From positions 1 to 15,221 of the forward strand of contig JALLAZ010000457.1 in the NCBI GenBank assembly GCA_036939755.1: 15,221 bases of DNA, read 5' to 3'. The DNA comes from Stephanodiscus triporus. Lineage: Eukaryota; Bacillariophyta; Thalassiosirophyceae; Thalassiosirales; Thalassiosiraceae. Below are positions 2,370 to 11,344 of the stretch, one piece after another; position 1 is the first letter of the stretch; each line of letters begins with the position of its first letter. Under the pieces are notes generated by a model. It saw only the letters and a program-made list of their open reading frames with translations, did not search any database and was not told the origin of the DNA. The position numbers and the translations under genes are program-made.

Positions 2370-2483
2370 TTAGAAATCAAATCAAAAAGTCGGTGGAGGC
2401 ATCGGCAAGGGCGGTTCTGTTGTTCCAATTTGATGTTGTGTTTCAGCCCCGTCATCGCCTTGGTGTCCTTGGTTTTAAATGTT

Positions 2484-3104
2484 TTAAAACTGGTACTGTA
2501 CGTTTGACCTCAATTGGCAGCAAGACATAGTCTTGATCACGAGAGGGATCTTCGCTCGAGGGACCTGCACCTCCAGATGAGCGAGGGCCACGGCACGCAC
2601 CTCGCCAGGCACGCACTGAGCCTTGTGGGTCGCCACACGGAGCGTCAAGCCATTTTTGACAAGAAAGCAAGAAATCGCCATCATGCGCGCAGAGCAACTC
2701 CTCTGTAAGAACTCCGGCTTCAACTTTCCAATCTTTCTCATCAGACCCATTCTTGTGACGGGGAATCCCTTCGACCTCCAATGCTCCACAAAACCTATGA
2801 GTTCCTCCTCAACATCCGCAACAATGCTTGTAGGTCCTTCGTGTAGAATTAGCTTGCTTTCAACAGAGGAATCAGAAAGGGCAACTGCTTTCTTCCTCCA
2901 ATCCCTAATACTTGCCGGGTCAACCCCATGCCTTGACGCAGCCACGTTGAGAGGGACATTCTCTGTGGTCATCACAGCGTCCACCGCACGAACAATCTTC
3001 ATTTTCTCGCTTGAGGTGTACATGCGCCTCAAGCGAGTCCTGTTCTCGATGCGCTGAGCATCACGGGCATGGTTGGTGCCACAGGGGTTGTAGATGAGTC
3101 TCAT
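2484..3104 (-). pseudogene. pogo/CENP-B-type transposase, N-terminal remnant
   Basis: An ORF starting at ATG 3104 runs 206 codons to 2484. Near residues 30-75 there is a helix-turn-helix-like segment (NVAASRHGVDPASIRDWRKK). A CENP-B/pogo-type second helical domain follows at about residues 92-150, with an E-rich helix, a W, a GFPVTR turn and the segment KNGLTLRVATHKAQ, which resembles the usual NGLSxRRxTHxAQ signature. After that the family should continue into a DDE nuclease domain. Instead the frame degenerates: residues resembling the region before the first catalytic Asp appear in another frame (RDQDYVL, near 2540-2520), and no DDE core is seen. This is a dead, 3'-truncated Tc1/mariner-superfamily element. 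I could not define terminal inverted repeats. The family assignment rests on motif recognition only. Confidence 0.6.
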
Positions 3105-3281
3105 TGTTTGTCGGAAGGTGAAGAGGTAAGAGAATTGTGAGGGTTTGTGTTTTGTGTCACGTGGCCAAGGGAGCAAAGGAGGGCAGCAGTAGGAATTAAA
3201 CGTAGGACCTAGGTACAAAATCAGGGGATGCGCCAAAAAAACACAAAAAAAACGAAGACGTAGGAATAGTATCACTACCAA

Positions 3282-3620
3282 ATTAGACCTAACTACCTAT
3301 GACGGGCGAGAATTTCTGTCGTCTCCGGAGTTGCCCTGCGTGTTCTACGGTAAGTCGATTTTACTTAATTAAGTAAGGGTACCTCATGTAAGAAGGTATG
3401 TTAATCTGAATTGCACATAGGAGCACGTTATAATTTGTATTGATCTCTAAAGGTACTGTGTATTGTAAACGCGTTTTTTCAACTTACGGCTGTTTTGCTG
3501 CCGCACTATGACTTCGCGCCCACGTACCTTACAACCTCCACAGCTGAGGCCAACCGAGCTGCCGAAAGAGCAGGGGTGGCGAAGGAAAGGGAGAAGGAGT
3601 GGGGACCGTGAGCTTTGCCC
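3282..3620. other. Non-coding spacer with a 16-bp perfect palindrome
   Basis: No convincing ORF lies here on either strand; the minus-strand ORF entering from 3764 has no recognisable content. The one clear structure is the perfect palindrome TTACTTAATTAAGTAA at 3361-3376. The stretch separates the transposase remnant (minus) from the decayed PARP/Deltex gene (plus), so it should contain one end of the mobile element, but no terminal repeat is recognised. Confidence 0.4.
3361..3376. repeat. 16-bp perfect palindrome
   Basis: TTACTTAATTAAGTAA equals its own reverse complement. It lies in non-coding DNA between a transposase remnant and the decayed PARP/Deltex gene. It could be a protein-binding site, a footprint near an element end, or chance in AT-rich DNA. 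Confidence 0.5.
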
Positions 3621-4316
3621 ATGAATTTTTTTAAAGCATACAGCCCTCTCTCTGCCGGGCAACGTCATTGGCGGGCCACAACGAACAACGACTAGTTTGT
3701 TATTGACAGCAGCAGTGAAAGTGACGACAACAACAACAACGACATAGATCTGCTGCAGGATCATAAGCCTGCCACAAAAAATAGATGTTGGGATAGAACT
3801 TGCTCTGCAAAGAAGAAGGATGAGACTTCACAGTGCATTTCCTTGCTGGTGGACAGCTCCGAAGAGGAAAACAATCCAGGATGAAGAAGCAAAACAGGGA
3901 TGAAGAGGCCACGGATCAAGAGCTGGCTAAGAAACTTCAACAGTTGGAAGAAGATGCCGCAAGGAAGGCAGATAAAAGGGAGGATGTGACGCAAAAGAGG
4001 CAAAACAAGGAGGAGGAGGCTGCGGATCAAGAGATGGCCGAGAAACTTCAACAATTGGACGAAAATGCTGCACACAAGGCAAGCGCAAGTGAGGAGAGGA
4101 GGCAAATGGCCAAATCTTCAGATGGCAAGGCCATCCTTGCCATGCAGGAAATCATTGCCCTTGTGAAAGCTGCCAAGGAAAGATTCATAGACAACAACCA
4201 AGCTCTTCAACGGCACAATATCGAGGCAGTGGCAATTGATGACATGGTTTTCATGGTCAAGAACATGTTAGAGAAGCAGGAAGAGTTTATTCGCAACCAA
4301 ATATCAGATTACACTG
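3621..4316 (+). pseudogene. N-terminal module: SUMO-interaction-like motifs and DQELAxxLQ repeats
   Basis: In the frame of ATG 3621, after a TAG at 3693-3695, the sequence reads FVIDSSSESDDNNNNDIDLL. About 45 codons later comes CISLLVDSSEEENN. Both are hydrophobic cores (VID, LLVD) followed by Ser and acidic residues, the form of SUMO-interacting motifs. The frame then changes around 3875-3895 into a long charged helix containing two copies, 37 residues apart, of DQELAKKLQQLEED (from about 3914) and DQEMAEKLQQLDEN (from about 4025). Similar DxExAxxLQ repeats occur in many ubiquitin-pathway proteins. The helix continues to residues encoded at 4316, where a GTGTGT donor follows ACT-G. The SIM reading is inference from composition. 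If the first exon lies elsewhere, the 3693 stop would be untranslated rather than a lesion. Confidence 0.5.
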
Positions 4317-4420
4317 GTGTGTTTTATGATATATTCTTCTGGTCTTTGTTTTGTTACTATTGTGCATTTGCTCAACATCTCTACGGACTTTATTCTAACA
4401 TTCCTTCGATGAACTGAAGA

Positions 4421-5076
4421 CATTTGATACCATTACACCGATCAAAGAAACCTCGTCAATATTTGGACACATGGGCTACTCACAAGTGCCGAGTGCCAAT
4501 CAAACAAAGTCCAAGCAGCCCCAAAAGGAAGATGTGCTGTAAAATCCTCATTAAGATGTATGTTGTTATCATATATTTGTGTTTGATTTGTTCTTGAAGT
4601 CAAACCGTGTGGTTTTCCCACAGTCACAGTGTCTTTGGAGATGGGATATACACTGCCAACAATGGCACGAGCTTTTCAAACTATGGAGATACAGGTGAGA
4701 ATTATGGGACCATTCTTTGTGGTTTGGTAGGCACGTATCTACTCCAGCTCATTGTGCTTCATTTTACAGGCCTTCTTGTGGCTAGACTCAAGGGCGAAAT
4801 GGTCTCCTGTGCAGACCGATCTCTTACACCTGGTCAAATAATTGACGCTAACACTGTTATCGGAGACAAGTTCCAAGGGATAACAGCATCGCAAACTCCC
4901 TTGTTTTATTTATTTACAGGGATGGATGGCCAGTCAATGATTCCTCCCACAAGATTGTCATCCATTCATCTGCACAGTGTTTGCCAATGGTCAAGTTTGA
5001 TAGGGTATTAATTGATCACAAAACAGGAAGGAACTGCATCAGATTCTTGAAGCATTCACTGGAACTGATTATATAA
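4421..5076 (+). pseudogene. PARP-type ADP-ribosyltransferase fragment
   Basis: Exons 4421-4557, 4624-4694, 4770-4869 and 4920-5076 join in one frame over introns of 66, 75 and 50 nt. The third exon pair gives the PARP signature HSVFGDGIYTANN (FGxGIYxA) followed by FSNYGDTG|LLVARLKG. The last exon gives HKIVIHSSAQCLPMVKFD, matching the EYIVYxxxQxLP strand that ends PARP catalytic domains. The NAD-binding His of the HGT motif is not visible. The residue aligned with the catalytic Glu (eight before the Q) is Lys, so transferase activity would be lost or altered even without the stops. The frame ends at TAA 5074-5076, 340 nt before the RING. In the family this domain transfers ADP-ribose from NAD+. 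Confidence is good for the fold family and low for the subfamily. Confidence 0.65.
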
Positions 5077-5084
5077 ATAGGCTG

Positions 5085-5426
5085 GTGTTCAATAAAGGGT
5101 TGGAGTGCAGCGACTTATGCAAAGCACCATTAATTGCAACGGTGCCTATTAGAGCCACTATGCCTCTGCCATTTCCACAATGTGGCATGCATCCTATTCT
5201 TCCAAGATTCCCTCCAGGAACGGTGGCCCCAGGAAATCATTTGTCAAGTTTATTTTCACTACCACATTCTTTGACTCTTCAAGCTGCAAAGGACAGGGCT
5301 CACGCCATCGCCATTGGCAGCAACAACTACCCAAGCAATTCAAGCAAATACGGCGGCTATCAAAGCAAACAAGGCGGCTTTCCAAGCAAATTGAGTCCCA
5401 GTTTCCACGAATCCACCAATGAATAA
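5085..5426 (+). pseudogene. Linker between PARP-like and RING modules with SKxGG repeats
   Basis: The region is open in one frame for about 113 codons (no ATG at its left edge; the nominal start is in-frame within the linker) and ends at a TAA at 5424-5426. Its content is linker-like, rich in Pro, Gly, Ser and Leu. Its last third holds a short 7-residue tandem repeat (SKYGGYQ, SKQGGFP, SKLSP) around 5344-5400. The RING frame begins at 5419, one base out of phase, so one small indel separates this linker from the RING. No catalytic domain is seen. Its only support as coding sequence is the open frame, the repeat and its place between the two modules. Confidence 0.4.
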
Positions 5427-6870
5427 CATTGCTAAAAGTCTGCAGTACACAGCTCTGCAGAGTCTTGCCATGTGCATCCTGTCCAATGCAATAACAGCAT
5501 CTCCAGCATCCTGCAATGTGAGAGATGATTGCATGATCTGCTTCAAGAGACTTGACAAGAGACACTATGTTGCACTGAAGGTGTGCAATCATGTGTTTAT
5601 CACCAGTGTATCCAGATTGCATTCATTCAAGTCCAAGCCTCAGTGTCCAGTTTGTTGAGTTCCCGTTGGGGCATCACCACAAGGGAAATCACCTTCTGGG
5701 ACAATGACTTTATCTATCAGCCCCATGAGTTGCTCTGGCTTTCGGTGCAACTCATTAGTCATATCGTACAATATTTTTGCTGCATAGCTATCAACTGAGC
5801 TACCACGACAACCTAGGCCAGTCCATAGTGGCAAAGTTGCAACTTCATTTTTTCCAAATAATGAAGAGGGAAAAGATCTTTTGAAACGATTGAAATTTGC
5901 TTTCATGCATGGTCTCATTTGTACTGTCGGGACGTCATTGTCGAGTGGTTTGTCTGATCAGTGTACATGGTAAGAGGTCTGGTGACATCACATATATTCT
6001 TTTCCTGATTTCTAAGCTGATTTTTTGACTTCTTCCTACGACAAGGTCATCTATTCATCACAAGACATTGCCTTCTGGGCATCCGCCCCCCAAGACCAAA
6101 GGCGTGGAGGTGATGTCGTCCCACATGTTGCCGTGCCCCCCAGCAGTATCAGGGGTGACATCACCATGAATGTCTTGTTCTTGCAATAGTGCACCCTCCA
6201 ACGTGCGGCACATTCTGTGTCCAGGGGGCACCGGGACTTGTCCATGTCGGTCTATTGGAGGCATCAGTTGAGAAGGAGCCAACGTTGCCAGTTGGCAGCA
6301 ACAGATTGCAACAAAACATTTGCCTTGCACCAAGAATACAAATGAGAGGCAAAAAATAGCTCAATTGGAAAACAAAGAAGAGTAGCCACCTACTCTCGGC
6401 AAATCTAATCAAGCAGCGAGGAAACACGCCAAAAAGATTGTCGTGGTGTCACCCATACCTTGGGGGTAAAGAGGCCCACCACATTCCTCTAATGATAGTA
6501 ATTATTACATGGCTCTGAGAAAACACCAAGCAGAGGGCTGTCATATTGATATTTACTTTAAATTAGCAACATATCCCCGAGCTTCTTCCTTGACACTGCC
6601 TTGATTTTCTAGCTCCTCCTCCATCAGATACCAATTCTTGAAAAGACTTTTCATTTGACCTCTGTCTCCTCCAGGATCCTGACCCCGATGGACCGCCTGA
6701 GCGCCTGGGTCAGAGCTTCGGTCTTGGACATCTCAAGTCATGTGTTTCCTGACCCAGACTACATTGGAAACTGCAGGAGAGAATTGGATGGTCTCTTGGT
6801 GCCACCTGCACAGGCAATCAATGAGGATGGCAATATAATCTGCAGAATTAGATACTTTACATTTCTTTGA
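5419..6870 (+). pseudogene. Deltex-type E3 ligase fragment: RING-H2 plus DTC domain
   Basis: The RING begins CMICFKRL and VCNHVF. A one-frame shift then supplies YHQCIQ, and return to the first frame gives KPQCPVC, completing a C3H2C3 RING. The TGA at 5656-5658 sits where a RING normally has an Arg. Immediately after comes the DTC hallmark GKSPSGTM (usual GNQPxGTM). Then follow LVISYNI, a TAG at 5785-5787, PRQPRP, FFPNNEEGKDLL, AFMHGLICTVGTS and, over a 76-nt intron (5970-6045, TG|G in phase), W-SSIHHKT. The terminal piece VFPDPDYIGNCRREL lies at 6742-6786. Every block occurs in the order known for Deltex C-terminal domains, which bind ADP-ribose and help place ubiquitin on ADP-ribosylated targets. 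The gap 6080-6740 is either a long intron or an insertion. Confidence 0.85.
6110..6674 (+). other. Probable long intron (or insertion) within the DTC domain
   Basis: GAG|GTGATG at 6109/6110 and CTGTCTCCTCCAG|GAT at 6674/6675 are both phase 0. They would join the IHHKT exon to DPDPDGPPERLGQSFG, shortly before the last DTC block. At 565 nt it is five to ten times longer than the other introns seen here. A perfect 9-bp inverted repeat (GGTGATGTC at 6109-6117, GACATCACC at 6157-6165) covers the proposed donor. The minus strand is open across 6058-6333, but the product resembles nothing I know. An inserted non-autonomous element that enlarged a normal intron is possible. I found no clear target-site duplication. 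Confidence 0.4.
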
Positions 6871-7101: not shown

Positions 7102-10100
7102 CTATTTACAATTCCATAATCTCGCACCGTTGTGCCAATTTTTATCCATCCTTCCGCTAGCAGGGCAAACTTTGCTATGCCATGGAGTTTTACGAAACAT
7201 GTCCTTCATCGCTGAGCCCGTTCGTTCGGGTAATCGACCGTTGGACGACATGGAATCCCGCCCTCCTAACAGGCGCGACAGATCAGAAACCGCCCCGCCG
7301 CGCTCTTCTTCTAATCGTAAGAGTGCCTGTTCCTTACATCGTGTAGCAAGATGCTGATTTCCCATCTTTTCTGCAATCTGATACCAAAGCTTCCACGTTA
7401 AAGAGTTGCCACCAGGCAAAAGATTCTCCTTAAGACTAAGTGCAATGCAGTGTTGTGCTAAGAGGTGTTCTCCACGCGAGAACTCGAGCCTCGCCATTGA
7501 GTACAGTATCAAAGACCTCATGGCCGAATCGCCCTCCTCCGATCCAGTCACCCGTAGTGCATTGTCGAAAAGTTGTTCTGCCCGCGAATAAGTCCCGAGG
7601 TGGTATTCGCAGACGCCCCATGTGTGGAAGAGTCGCGCCAAGCCACTTTTTCCACCGTCGACACTGCCATCAGGATTATCGACCAACGATAAACCAGACA
7701 TGGCCTGGGCACCTTTCATGAGGATCGCTTGCGCCTCCACAAAATTCTTCCGCTTCATTTCAAACTCGGCGAATAACTGGTACGGCTCGGCGCTCCTCAA
7801 TCCAACCCGGTGACAAGCTGCCTCGTATAAGAGCCGTGCCTTCTTGGGTTCCCCATGATCAGCCTGCAACTCGGCCCATTGGATTAACAAACTTACATCA
7901 TTGGGAAATAATCTTGCGGCCTTACCGAAGACGATGTGAGTAGTTTCGTACGTTCCATGAATTTGCTCCATGCGGCACCAAGACTTGAAAACGTTGATCC
8001 ACTTGTCGCCTGCGTAGCTACGCGCATATTGATTACCGTGTCCATCCCCCAAAGACGAAGTCTCAAAAGATTTAGTATCTTTCTCGAGTGTTGTTGGACG
8101 GTACAGACTGCGACTACGGCGTTTCTTCTCGTAGTTTGATAAGGCGTCTCGGTACACCTTTCGCGCTTGCTCAATGTTCCCCTCACTTTCCTCCAGTTGC
8201 GCCAGCGCAATTACACCTTGCGCATGCATTCCCCCATTAACATCCAATGATTGGCGAAGTAAGGTCCTACTATCTTTCGTATGCCCCTGTGCATACGAAA
8301 CAAAAGACAATGATGTGTAGAAGAACGGCTTGCTCCACTCTGGCCCATGCTGCAAACCCGCCAAGTACGACCCCTCCGCTAAGTCAAGCATGTTGGCGTC
8401 CATATACACGTCGCCCAGTGCATGATGTAATCGATGGTTGTAAGGGCAATTTCGTATCCCCTCCTTGATGACCGACAGTGCCGCGCGGATATTACCATGC
8501 GTGTGTTCCAACGTCCCCAAAGCATGGTACGGGTTCGGATATGTAGGATCACATTTGATTGCCTTGCGATAATACGTCTTGGCGCCATGGTCGTTCCCTG
8601 CTGCGCGTTCGAGCTGTGCCAATCCATTCAGCAGGTGAGCATTTTCTGGCTCGGATCGTAACGCCTGTATGAGAATGGCCCGCGACGAGGAAAAATTACC
8701 GTCCTCCTGCTCCATCCTGGCCAGGCGGCGCACGACGCGCATATCGTGAGGCGTCGCCTCGCGCAGCTGGGACAATATCGCCTTGGAATGCTTGCGATCT
8801 CCAGCCTGATCAGCCAGCTTTGCTTCCATGTACATTTCGCGTACCTCGCGATTTGAAAAGTTGGAGGAGGGGGCGTTGAATGTCTTGGATAACTGATTGA
8901 TCGATTCCTGGTTGATCATGCTGTTGTTTGACGCCTCTTCTAATTCTTCTTCGTCGTCGTTCTCGTCATCTTCCTTCTCGATGACAACTGTGGAGTTGCT
9001 AAAGTACGACTCGTCCACAAGACCCAAAACCCCACGTTTTGTTTTACGCTTCTTCTCCTTGGTCAACGCCTTCCTCTTATTAGTGAGAGCATCCACATCA
9101 TAGCTTTCGAAATCCACATCTGGGATATTCACTTCTATTATCCTCCCTTTGCTCTTACTGAGTTCGATCAAATCCTTCAAGCCGCTCAGCCTGTTTTTGA
9201 CCCGTTTCCTATCCTGAACCGTTGCCCATATTAAGAGTCGCTGCTGCAAATCCGGCTTCTTCCCAGAAATGGTCAAATCGCGTTCGGCGCACGCCGCTTG
9301 CAGCTCGGACTTCCTCAGTGCGTTGATCTGTGTCTCAGTGGGCACCCACGGCAGCCAGGGTGGCACCTCCTCCTCGACTTGTCCGCTGGGTGTGGATTTG
9401 GATTTCGGACGGGCGGACCGGCTGCCGGTGCTGATTGCGATGACTTCAAGTTCTGCCTTCATCGCTGCGGAGCTTCCATCCTTTTTCGGTAGTGAGGCCG
9501 CTACGCGTTGTGAGATCGAACTGACTAATTGAGGATTGAGCGTTCGTGCAGCAGGTCGTGCCTTGTTGTCAATTTCGAGCGAGAAGTCATCCCGGTAAGT
9601 ATCAAAGTCCTCGAATGAAAACTGCAACTCGTCAGCAGCCGAGTCGCTGTCACCATTGCTACCTTTGTAAGGTTCTAAGTCCTCCACGCGGAATCCCAGT
9701 ACGTTATCGGTGCTGCGCGATACCGGCAGACAAGTAGTGGAGCTGCCGCCAGAGACGAGTCGTCTCATTTGACGCAGTGCCCCGCTACCTTGTCGCATGG
9801 AAGCGAGTTTGGATGGCTTGAATTTCGAGGCTGGGGCTTTCAATAATTCGTCCATGGACATGATCAATGGTTGGAACGACTGGTGCAACGGACCTCCTGC
9901 TCTCAGCGGCAGCTCCTCGAACGTTGATGCGCTGCCGGTGTCTGGCGCTAATGTTCCGTCCAACAGAGACGCGATGCGAGCCGACGCCGACGGAGGATGC
10001 CGCGTGCTGCGAAGGGCGAAGGTGGATGTGGAGAACGCAGCCTCGGCTTGTTGAGGGTGTAAAATAGCCACGCTCGCGGCGGTCGCAGCAGTTGCTAATG

Positions 10101-10188
10101 CACGAGGACTTCTCCGATATCTAAGATTTTCTTGATACATTGATGTCGTTGTGGCCGGGAGGCTAGCGTTGGGTGATTGATTTGACAT
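7102..10188 (-). CDS. SAP-domain HAT/TPR repeat protein, HCF107/Mbb1-like plastid RNA maturation factor
   Basis: A single uninterrupted 1028-residue frame starts at ATG 10188. Residues 17-60 look like a diatom bipartite plastid signal: basic RYRRSPR, a mild hydrophobic stretch at 30-43, AEA|AFS around 48-52 (an ASAFAP-like site with Phe at +1 or +2), then a Ser/Arg-rich transit region. A shorter product from Met17 would fit this better. A SAP motif lies at about 288-320 (LRKSELQAACAERD, then SGKKPDLQQRLL). It is followed by basic and strongly acidic stretches (368-386, 404-418). From about 450 to 960 the protein is made of HAT/TPR-like helical pairs, such as EESEGNIEQARKVYRDAL at 666-683. The C-terminus has MFRKTPW. 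HCF107/Mbb1 proteins bind and stabilise the psbB/psbH transcripts of photosystem II. The repeat class and plastid link are well supported; the precise RNA target is inference. Confidence 0.82.
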   Translation of the reverse strand: MSNQSPNASLPATTTSMYQENLRYRRSPRALATAATAASVAILHPQQAEAAFSTSTFALRSTRHPPSASARIASLLDGTLAPDTGSASTFEELPLRAGGPLHQSFQPLIMSMDELLKAPASKFKPSKLASMRQGSGALRQMRRLVSGGSSTTCLPVSRSTDNVLGFRVEDLEPYKGSNGDSDSAADELQFSFEDFDTYRDDFSLEIDNKARPAARTLNPQLVSSISQRVAASLPKKDGSSAAMKAELEVIAISTGSRSARPKSKSTPSGQVEEEVPPWLPWVPTETQINALRKSELQAACAERDLTISGKKPDLQQRLLIWATVQDRKRVKNRLSGLKDLIELSKSKGRIIEVNIPDVDFESYDVDALTNKRKALTKEKKRKTKRGVLGLVDESYFSNSTVVIEKEDDENDDEEELEEASNNSMINQESINQLSKTFNAPSSNFSNREVREMYMEAKLADQAGDRKHSKAILSQLREATPHDMRVVRRLARMEQEDGNFSSSRAILIQALRSEPENAHLLNGLAQLERAAGNDHGAKTYYRKAIKCDPTYPNPYHALGTLEHTHGNIRAALSVIKEGIRNCPYNHRLHHALGDVYMDANMLDLAEGSYLAGLQHGPEWSKPFFYTSLSFVSYAQGHTKDSRTLLRQSLDVNGGMHAQGVIALAQLEESEGNIEQARKVYRDALSNYEKKRRSRSLYRPTTLEKDTKSFETSSLGDGHGNQYARSYAGDKWINVFKSWCRMEQIHGTYETTHIVFGKAARLFPNDVSLLIQWAELQADHGEPKKARLLYEAACHRVGLRSAEPYQLFAEFEMKRKNFVEAQAILMKGAQAMSGLSLVDNPDGSVDGGKSGLARLFHTWGVCEYHLGTYSRAEQLFDNALRVTGSEEGDSAMRSLILYSMARLEFSRGEHLLAQHCIALSLKENLLPGGNSLTWKLWYQIAEKMGNQHLATRCKEQALLRLEEERGGAVSDLSRLLGGRDSMSSNGRLPERTGSAMKDMFRKTPWHSKVCPASGRMDKNWHNGARLWNCK

Positions 10189-11344
10189 TTCGAAGACAAT
10201 AGAGGTTCACCTAACAGAGATTGAAATCTCTCTCTCTCCTCTTTGACCAATGATGCTACGAACATTCGACCTTGTTGACTGATGCCCTGCCTGCTTGTAG
10301 CTTGGAGTTCGAAAGCCGTCGCAGCTGCTGCCAGATAATGGTCCAGAACAAAAATTTCCTTTTTCCGAGAAGAGGTCCTGTTCCGAAACAGCTCAACGTG
10401 GCAGTCTGGCCATCGTCTGCGTTCTACGAGACAGAGATTTCCAACAACTCCTGGCCCTAAAGGAGGAGCATCATTGGATCAAGCTCAAGTGATAGTAATA
10501 CCTAGTAAAGTAAGAATAGTATTCACTTAGTGCTAGAGAAGTTGAGAGGAAGGGTGTAGATATGACAGGAAACATGATTTCAGAATGGCAGGATTCAGTT
10601 CTCAATGAGGGACCGAGGCATCATACCTCACTAGGTCGGGCGGAGGATTTGGCAAGTGCTGTCAGGTCAATGGTTGGCAAGGCAAGAAATGGGAGACAAA
10701 ATAAACATATGTTTGGAACATTAGATATTGAAGCCTGGTATTTATGTATAATATTACAACTGTCTGCCTAGAGAGGGAAACAGTCAAAATTGACACTTCT
10801 GTACATCACAAAAAATGAAAGATACTCCAAAAAAAAACATCAGTAACAACTCTCCTCTTTTCAAAAAGGATGTGTTTTGTTGCTATTGACGTACATCCCT
10901 TTAGCTGACCAGAAACTATGTCATCATTCACCCAGTCAACAACATATGTAAAATATTGATCTCCATATCGTTTTTAATATTGCTTAGTATTCGTCCACCA
11001 ATGACCAAGGTTGTGTATCAATGTTTTCAGGTTTACACTAGTACTTTTGTGACAGCATTATCACTATGCTCCTTGAAAGTTAATATTGGCCGATGTCCAC
11101 TGATGACAACTAGCAATGGTCTGCAACTACGACACCAGCAAACAACAAAGATAACACGTCAGATCTTTCTGGCCGTTTTCGATTGGGCAGCTCGAAGGAC
11201 AAACTGATCCTTGTGAGCAATGACATGTTCGTTGTTTAAGCTGGCTGTCAGCTTAAGACCAAGCATTTTTTCTCTTCGTGATCTACAACCTTGAATTTAT
11301 ACCATATGCTATCCATATCACCAAACATGTAACGCGAAACACTA
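10189..11344. other. Long spacer, no convincing gene
   Basis: The left end is the promoter side of the repeat-protein gene, with a 16-bp inverted repeat and CT tract at 10215-10240 and a CCAAT pentamer at 10248-10252. The longest ATG-started ORF is 10562-10771 (69 aa), with no recognised motif. ORFs at 10272-10460 and 10956-11207 begin with TTG. The rest is AT-rich with many stops in all frames. Scattered plausible coding bits without continuity suggest old decayed sequence, but I cannot assign a source. No tRNA, rRNA or array of repeats is visible. Confidence 0.4.
10215..10240. promoter_or_regulatory. Inverted repeat and CT-rich tract 5' of the HCF107-like gene
   Basis: AGAGATT-GA-AATCTCT (10216-10231) is a perfect 7+2+7 inverted repeat. 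It runs into a CT-dinucleotide tract, 28-50 nt upstream of the ATG on the minus strand. It therefore probably lies in the 5' untranslated leader or core promoter. On the RNA it could form a short hairpin. A regulatory role is inference. Confidence 0.3.

Follow-up and report, generated by a model that had tools for sequence, protein, structure and literature searches.

The window, a 15,221-nucleotide stretch of the diatom Stephanodiscus triporus (contig C454, JALLAZ010000457.1), very probably carries the decayed copy of a gene from a diatom family whose members encode a PARP-fold ADP-ribosyltransferase (ART) followed by a Deltex-type RING and Deltex C-terminal domain (DTC) in one polypeptide. 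Our reading covers the joined architecture, the active-site residues, the predicted folds and the decay, which are documented below, together with a tethered mechanism whose enzymatic steps we infer. Deltex-type ligases of animals put ubiquitin onto ADP-ribose, and in animals the two activities belong to separate partner proteins. The intact relatives of the locus combine a PARP-like enzyme expected to add ADP-ribose with a Deltex-type ligase in the same protein.

Positions 3669-6867 of the plus strand are collinear, by tblastn and alignment, with single diatom proteins, and the pieces follow each other in the order acidic N-terminus, helical segment, PARP-like ART exons, linker, RING-H2 and DTC. 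This agrees with a first-pass annotation made from the sequence alone, which had described PARP motifs, a linker of about 340 nucleotides (5085-5418), a RING-H2 and Deltex blocks on a single strand. The gene begins upstream of the PARP motif, with homology from near 3669. The Deltex C-terminal domain scores far above chance: PF18102 reaches 68.7 bits (E 8e-18) over 5680-5982 when read through two stops, and also 38.3 bits in the piece 5788-5970, for a curated cut-off of 25. The RING-H2, which is interrupted, matches PF13639 over 5395-5655 (E 5.2e-6) with 27.1 bits, just below the cut-off of 27.3. The PARP-type motifs are 45-80% identical to the ART of the relatives, for which the fold of a PARP ART is predicted; a Pfam search of the window's own ART pieces gave no match. 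Chance motifs were rejected on the basis of the DTC scores and of a collinear alignment spanning more than 3 kb. As to a viral, phage or prokaryote home, peptide patterns and tblastn, which distant relatives could escape, revealed no relative in viral_contigs, phages or genome_contigs.

Searches across about 5.8 billion proteins returned 88 different proteins (P0002-P0089). Family-derived profiles identified ART, RING and DTC in 65 of them, RING and DTC in 11, ART in 8, ART and RING in 2, ART and DTC in 1, and DTC in 1; these shares are not natural frequencies, because the queries were fusion proteins and candidate length was bound. The order ART, RING, DTC holds in 65/65 fused chains, the linker measuring 46 to 599 residues. 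Coverage of the ART model is 90% or more in 49 of these chains, and 36 of the 49 reach this level for the DTC model too. Thus, the homologs are not all PARP-only or RING-DTC-only, and the proposal that the ancestor of the locus encoded both activities in one polypeptide is supported. Single proteins matching both modules include P0086, P0011 and P0052. The nearest relative, P0086, shows 75% identity over the window's DTC piece, aligns with window 4811-5970, and is stop-free from the second ART half through the linker to RING and DTC. MMETSP records exist for P0011 (659 residues, 'type:complete') and P0052 (MMETSP1071), which are both full-length. An organism is given for 15 records, all of them diatoms, which places the fusion outside animals: Thalassiosira (sp. 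AJA248-18, exigua, profunda, oceanica, and MMETSP1071 under the genus taxid), Skeletonema (dohrnii, marinoi) and Chaetoceros tenuissimus. The printed names of some members are 'deltex-like protein' or 'RING-type E3 ubiquitin transferase', and PARP appears in none. Among the ART-only relatives, P0050 is labelled partial. P0088 (706 residues, MMETSP, 'complete') contains an ART but lacks RING and DTC, and is apparently a genuine ART-only protein; therefore, not every family member is a fusion.

Some chains carry additional features. A DQELAKKLQQLE-type motif was found in the first 450 residues of 18 of 36 chains, compared with 0.15 chains on average in shuffled sequences. It resembles the ubiquitin-binding MIU, as do the DQELAKKLQQLE / DQEMAEKLQQLD repeats of the window, a likeness that we treat as a lead only. 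Also, a Nup98 GLEBS-like segment was detected in P0082 (ART, RING and DTC, Thalassiosira profunda) and in the ART-only P0049 (26.8 and 26.3 bits, cut-off 27). In P0029 (Chaetoceros tenuissimus), the ART is preceded by about 450 residues that look by eye like a PCI or COP9-signalosome subunit, either a further fusion or a gene-model error.

In the second half of the chains, the DTC of P0011 reaches 125.6 bits, and a DTC match (E up to 1) was present in 46 of 47 aligned chains of the family. The RING zinc ligands directly before the DTC are kept among the relatives, the six Cys in 74/74 to 78/78 and the His in 76/77 and 76/76, and are broken in the window. Residues of DTX2 were mapped by alignment through PDB 6y22, and the numbering was checked on Lys473 after the last CxxC. 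A role in activating the 3' hydroxyl of ADP-ribose has been proposed for DTX2 His582 and Glu608, and changing either impairs the reaction (PMC7615817). Their equivalents are kept in 51/55 and 48/54 relatives; thus most diatom chains retain the pair, as DTX proteins do (PMC7615817). The RING linchpin is Arg in 73 of 77 relatives. Human Deltex ligases have Lys, Gln or Gly there, which was suggested to help avoid lysines, and DTX2 with Arg at this position showed only a limited negative effect on NAD+ ubiquitylation (PMC7615817).

For the first half, the predicted structure of the relatives' ART has the PARP catalytic fold, and the 50 fold matches listed per ranking were without exception PARP catalytic domains. 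We take H-Y-E to be the PARP triad and, together with GxGxY, to be of PARP type. The family keeps His in 60/60, Tyr in 65/65 and Glu in 76/76 relatives, and both Gly of GxGxY in 65/65. Weak matches to PF00644 were obtained for 15 of 22 ART slices (best E 0.0018) and 13 of 47 chains (best E 0.0054); the cut-off of this profile is a detection threshold and not a structural feature. Over both halves, 36 chains cover all scored columns: 33 have the triad, the eight zinc ligands and the DTC pair, and 31 additionally have the linchpin Arg; P0016, P0079, P0040, P0029 and P0046 depart from this pattern. Two separate frames were also observed in the genome. A 474-residue open frame on contig C492 (L003 339-1763), with Cys-rich repeats that by eye resemble GRF-type zinc fingers, lies above the PARP cut-off with 52.2 bits, so that the genome also has a more ordinary PARP; the other (L004, contig C591) is just above it with 28.8 bits.

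In the mechanism that we propose, the ART would take NAD+ and ADP-ribosylate either a substrate or itself. This ADP-ribose would then sit in a DTC pocket, within that chain or in a neighbouring copy, where the His-Glu pair would activate the ribose hydroxyl. The RING would then recruit E2~ubiquitin, and ubiquitin would pass to ADP-ribose or, favoured by the linchpin Arg, to a nearby lysine. Being on one chain, writer and ubiquitin extender would be tethered, whereas in animals they are separate proteins (PARP9/PARP14 with DTX3L). It is also plausible, though slightly less likely than not, that diatoms evolved a self-contained synthase of a hybrid ADP-ribose-ubiquitin mark, in which an active PARP writes ADP-ribose and an active Deltex module on that chain adds ubiquitin as a cap.

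The window copy itself is clearly decayed, as can be followed along the plus strand. The acidic segment (...VIDSSSESDD...CISLLVDSSEEEN, 3669-3881), which matches by tblastn the N-termini of P0011 (35%) and P0052 (40%), contains a TAG at 3693-3695. A frame change precedes the helical segment (3899-4316), with its two repeats DQELAKKLQQLE / DQEMAEKLQQLD and a 'AKSSDGKAILAMQEIIALV' block (54-59% identity to P0011 and P0050, 48% to P0008). After an inferred GT-AG intron (4317-4419), which keeps the frame between DYT and DI-stop-YHYT, the first ART block (YHYTDQRNLVNIWTHGLLTS, 4420-4532, 70% identity to P0050) has a TGA at 4425-4427 directly before the catalytic His codon (4431-4433). The block with the GxGxY motif (FGDGIYTANNGTSFSNYGD, 4624-4694) holds the catalytic Tyr codon at 4649-4651 and is separated by an inferred GT-AG intron (4695-4769) from the block GLLVARLKGEMV...DANTVIGDKFQGITASQTPLFYLF (4770-4915, 80% identity to P0086 over 4811-4915). 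A frame change follows at 4916-4920, where P0086 has no intron. In the last ART block (DGWPVNDSSHKIVIHSSAQCLPMVKFD..., 4921-5073), whose frame is closed by TAA at 5074-5076, codon 4951-4953 encodes Lys in place of the triad Glu found in 76/76 relatives, and the window thus departs from the triad. The first-pass annotation had placed three in-phase introns between FGDGIYTANN and SSAQCLPMVKFD. One clear GT-AG intron (4695-4769) is present there. The stretch 4870-4918 looks like an intron in the window but is coding in P0086, and the frame change near 4916-4920 is a lesion and not an intron. Further introns lie at about 4317-4419 and 5970-6045, and one with unsure borders between about 4530 and 4624.

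Downstream, the ART-RING coding linker (5085-5418) is spread over two frames with a TGA at 5392-5394, whereas it is continuous and open in P0086. The RING-H2 (C-x2-C ... CPVC, 5419-5655) has its middle His/Cys part out of frame, and a TGA occupies the linchpin position (5656-5658). The first two thirds of the DTC (QGKSPSGTM ... ICTVGTSLSSGLSDQCTW, 5659-5969) are interrupted by a TAG at 5785-5787 and then a short out-of-frame piece. An inferred GT-AG intron (5970-6045) follows DQCTW, the very point at which three close relatives, P0086, P0072 and P0087, break off. The block SSIHHKT (6046-6085) carries the His matching DTX2 His582 (codon 6056-6058). It is separated by about 640 nucleotides (6086-6729), an insertion or a very long intron with two short pieces that match elsewhere in the genome, from the FPDPDY block; intact relatives have about ten residues at this place. 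The DTC tail (HVFPDPDYIGNCRRELDGLLVPP, 6730-6867) shows 56% identity to P0008 and P0052 and holds the Glu matching DTX2 Glu608 (codon 6781-6783).

A second copy was found in the 21.65-Mb assembly (1324 contigs), on the minus strand of contig C887 (L006 6078-7830). Its ART half is broken by three frame changes, with one more further upstream, but 355 residues are still open, spanning the last part of the ART, the RING and the DTC. A third copy was not seen among the best candidates scored in this assembly, which may be incomplete. Intact copies are present in other diatoms. In the RING-DTC tree of 69 rows, whose bootstrap did not settle, the C887 copy falls beside P0002-P0004, and the closest neighbours of the window piece are P0086, P0072 and P0087. 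Both positions lie inside fused groups, so that the genome holds the remains of two old paralogs. The 11 RING-DTC rows without ART amount to four changes on this unrooted tree, at least three of them forced by well supported branches, which fits repeated loss or gain of the ART. Pairwise distances of ART and RING-DTC agree (Mantel r 0.78, 44 chains, 0/2000 permutations), as expected if the modules travel together. Around the second copy, a C-terminal tail of degenerate repeats (...KPSTLQVKAAAS...) is common to P0002, P0003, P0004 and the C887 copy (L006 about 5640-6100). Directly upstream of this copy and on the same minus strand, overlapping IF-2B (PF01008, 83 bits) and NUDIX (PF00293, 33.5 bits) frames occupy L006 7859-9551. 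NUDIX enzymes can act on ADP-ribose, and the neighbourhood may be chance.

Several points weigh against a fused and active family. Among the 65 fused chains, 16 have a partial ART, and most relatives are metagenome records without an organism name. The 8 ART-only and 11 RING+DTC-only relatives indicate that the modules can exist apart, the relatedness of the species would by itself make ART and DTC distances agree, and both copies in the Stephanodiscus genome are broken. Regarding the ART, the P0011 slice falls below the PF00644 cut-off (13.2 vs 26.7 bits), PF00644 appears in 0/88 precomputed Pfam lists, and weak matches to DarT and other ART families are about as strong as those to PF00644. 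When the ART profile was searched against PDB sequences, a 31-residue DarT match and chance matches came up, and no PARP was among them. The PARP assignment therefore rests on the predicted fold, the triad and the weak Pfam matches, and the below-cut-off scores lead us to file the domain as a PARP-fold ART and not as a settled PARP family member. Also, an intact H-Y-E triad is no proof of transferase activity, and the linchpin Arg, absent in human Deltex, may mean a more ordinary lysine ligase.

These points were considered against other explanations of the locus. That a PARP and a Deltex gene lie side by side by chance would accommodate the stops between the modules in the window and the ART-only and RING+DTC-only relatives, but it is extremely unlikely in view of the 65 single chains, 36 of them near-complete, the full-length MMETSP chains P0011 and P0052, the linker that stays open in P0086, and the C887 frame that spans the ART end into RING and DTC. 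We rejected two adjacent genes, since P0086 and the full-length chains refute them unless all are mis-assembled. It is very unlikely, too, that the lesions are assembly or sequencing errors in a gene that is intact in the cell. They are known from the 1324-contig assembly alone; yet the neighbouring frames are long and open (a 1034-residue TPR protein, a 335-residue aldo/keto reductase frame), the lesions include stops, the Glu-to-Lys change in the triad and the 640-nucleotide split of the DTC, and the second copy is broken differently.

The function of the intact fusion proteins can also be viewed in other ways. The RING might be an ordinary lysine ligase, with ART and DTC marking or recruiting the target and ubiquitin going to protein lysines. 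The linchpin Arg, which favours lysine transfer and replaces the Lys, Gln or Gly of human Deltex, points in this direction (PMC7615817), but hydroxyl transfer depends on the DTC His and Glu, which most relatives retain, and Arg had only a limited negative effect on NAD+ ubiquitylation in DTX2 (PMC7615817); we regard this option as unlikely. It is quite improbable that the ART is dead, the protein reading the ADP-ribose of others and ubiquitylating there. The DTX3L partner PARP9 is reported to lack transferase activity (PMC13224862, PMC4245714), whereas H, Y and E are invariant in the diatom ART wherever covered. A dead domain would not need these residues, and their invariance argues against a PARP9-like state. 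An ART that modifies nucleic acid as DarT does, the DTC then ubiquitylating ADP-ribosylated DNA or RNA, seems to us similarly improbable: all fold matches listed are PARP catalytic domains, the triad with GxGxY is PARP-type, and the DarT match spans 31 residues only. On the other side, PF14487 (DarT) matched 6 of 22 slices (best E 0.0011), the DarT chain 8baq_A gave E 0.0013, and Deltex ubiquitylation of nucleic acids has already been published (PMC11460948). Given this weak DarT similarity, nucleic acid stays among the possible acceptors of a PARP-fold ART, beside protein and the enzyme itself.

Deltex and PARP proteins are known to work together in DTX3L-PARP9-PARP14 (PMC13224862). Human DTX3L-PARP9 (with PARP14) resembles the diatom family in bringing together a PARP-fold ART and a Deltex RING-DTC; there, two or three separate proteins are involved, whereas the diatom family has both modules on a single chain (65/88). 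The macrodomain, which we take to be PF01661, appears neither in the list of 18 Pfam families for P0011 nor in the precomputed Pfam lists of the 88 relatives. In contrast, the DTX3L-PARP9 system has KH domains and macrodomains (PMC13224862). Compared with the catalytic domains of tankyrase, PARP10, PARP12 and PARP15, the diatom ART is too distant for the Pfam PARP cut-off and is preceded by a distinct helical N-terminal part. Animal ligases of the DTX1/DTX2/DTX4 type have WWE domains ahead of the RING and are not known to carry an ART, whereas in diatom chains the ART stands there. Their linchpin is Lys (PMC7615817), as against Arg in the diatom family.

Fusions of PARP with the ubiquitin pathway are known elsewhere. 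A Dictyostelium Clade 3 protein also joins a PARP and a ubiquitin-ligase domain in a single chain, but with an N-terminal U-box and a macrodomain instead of the Deltex RING-DTC (PMC2964712, PMC4245714). In PARP6/8-type PARPs of fungi, moss and a green alga, PARP is joined to UBCc (PMC4245714; Clade 6A in PMC2964712), an E2-like partner, whereas the diatom partner is an E3 of the Deltex kind. Diatoms were earlier said to appear to have no PARPs (PMC2964712), and later at least two PARPs were reported in Thalassiosira oceanica and none in T. pseudonana (PMC4245714); the word Deltex is absent from the main text of both papers. No description of PARP and Deltex RING-DTC in one chain was found in the titles and abstract starts of the papers listed, in a library without subscription papers and most preprints. 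The new part would thus be the combination of the Deltex RING-DTC with a PARP-fold ART.

If diatoms did evolve a self-contained synthase, it would stand apart from the PARP9/PARP14-DTX3L assembly of animals, and the natural fusion would show that the two reactions form one pathway. A fused family keeping both active sites across diatom genera is independent natural evidence for such coupling. It also offers a one-protein system for testing both steps, in which the linchpin Arg, not found in human Deltex ligases, makes the choice between lysine and ADP-ribose testable. Also, the family adds to the revision of older reports of diatoms without PARPs.

The decayed gene is flanked by intact frames. 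On the minus strand, 7105-10206 encodes 1034 residues in which a SAP domain accompanies TPR/HAT repeats; on the plus strand an aldo/keto reductase frame occupies 101-1105. Just upstream of the decayed gene, 2420-3300 is a dispersed repeat with 20 genome matches at 71-100% identity, the window included. A minus-strand frame in it weakly matches HTH_Tnp_1 (E 2e-4, just below the cut-off), and the repeat is probably a transposon remnant.

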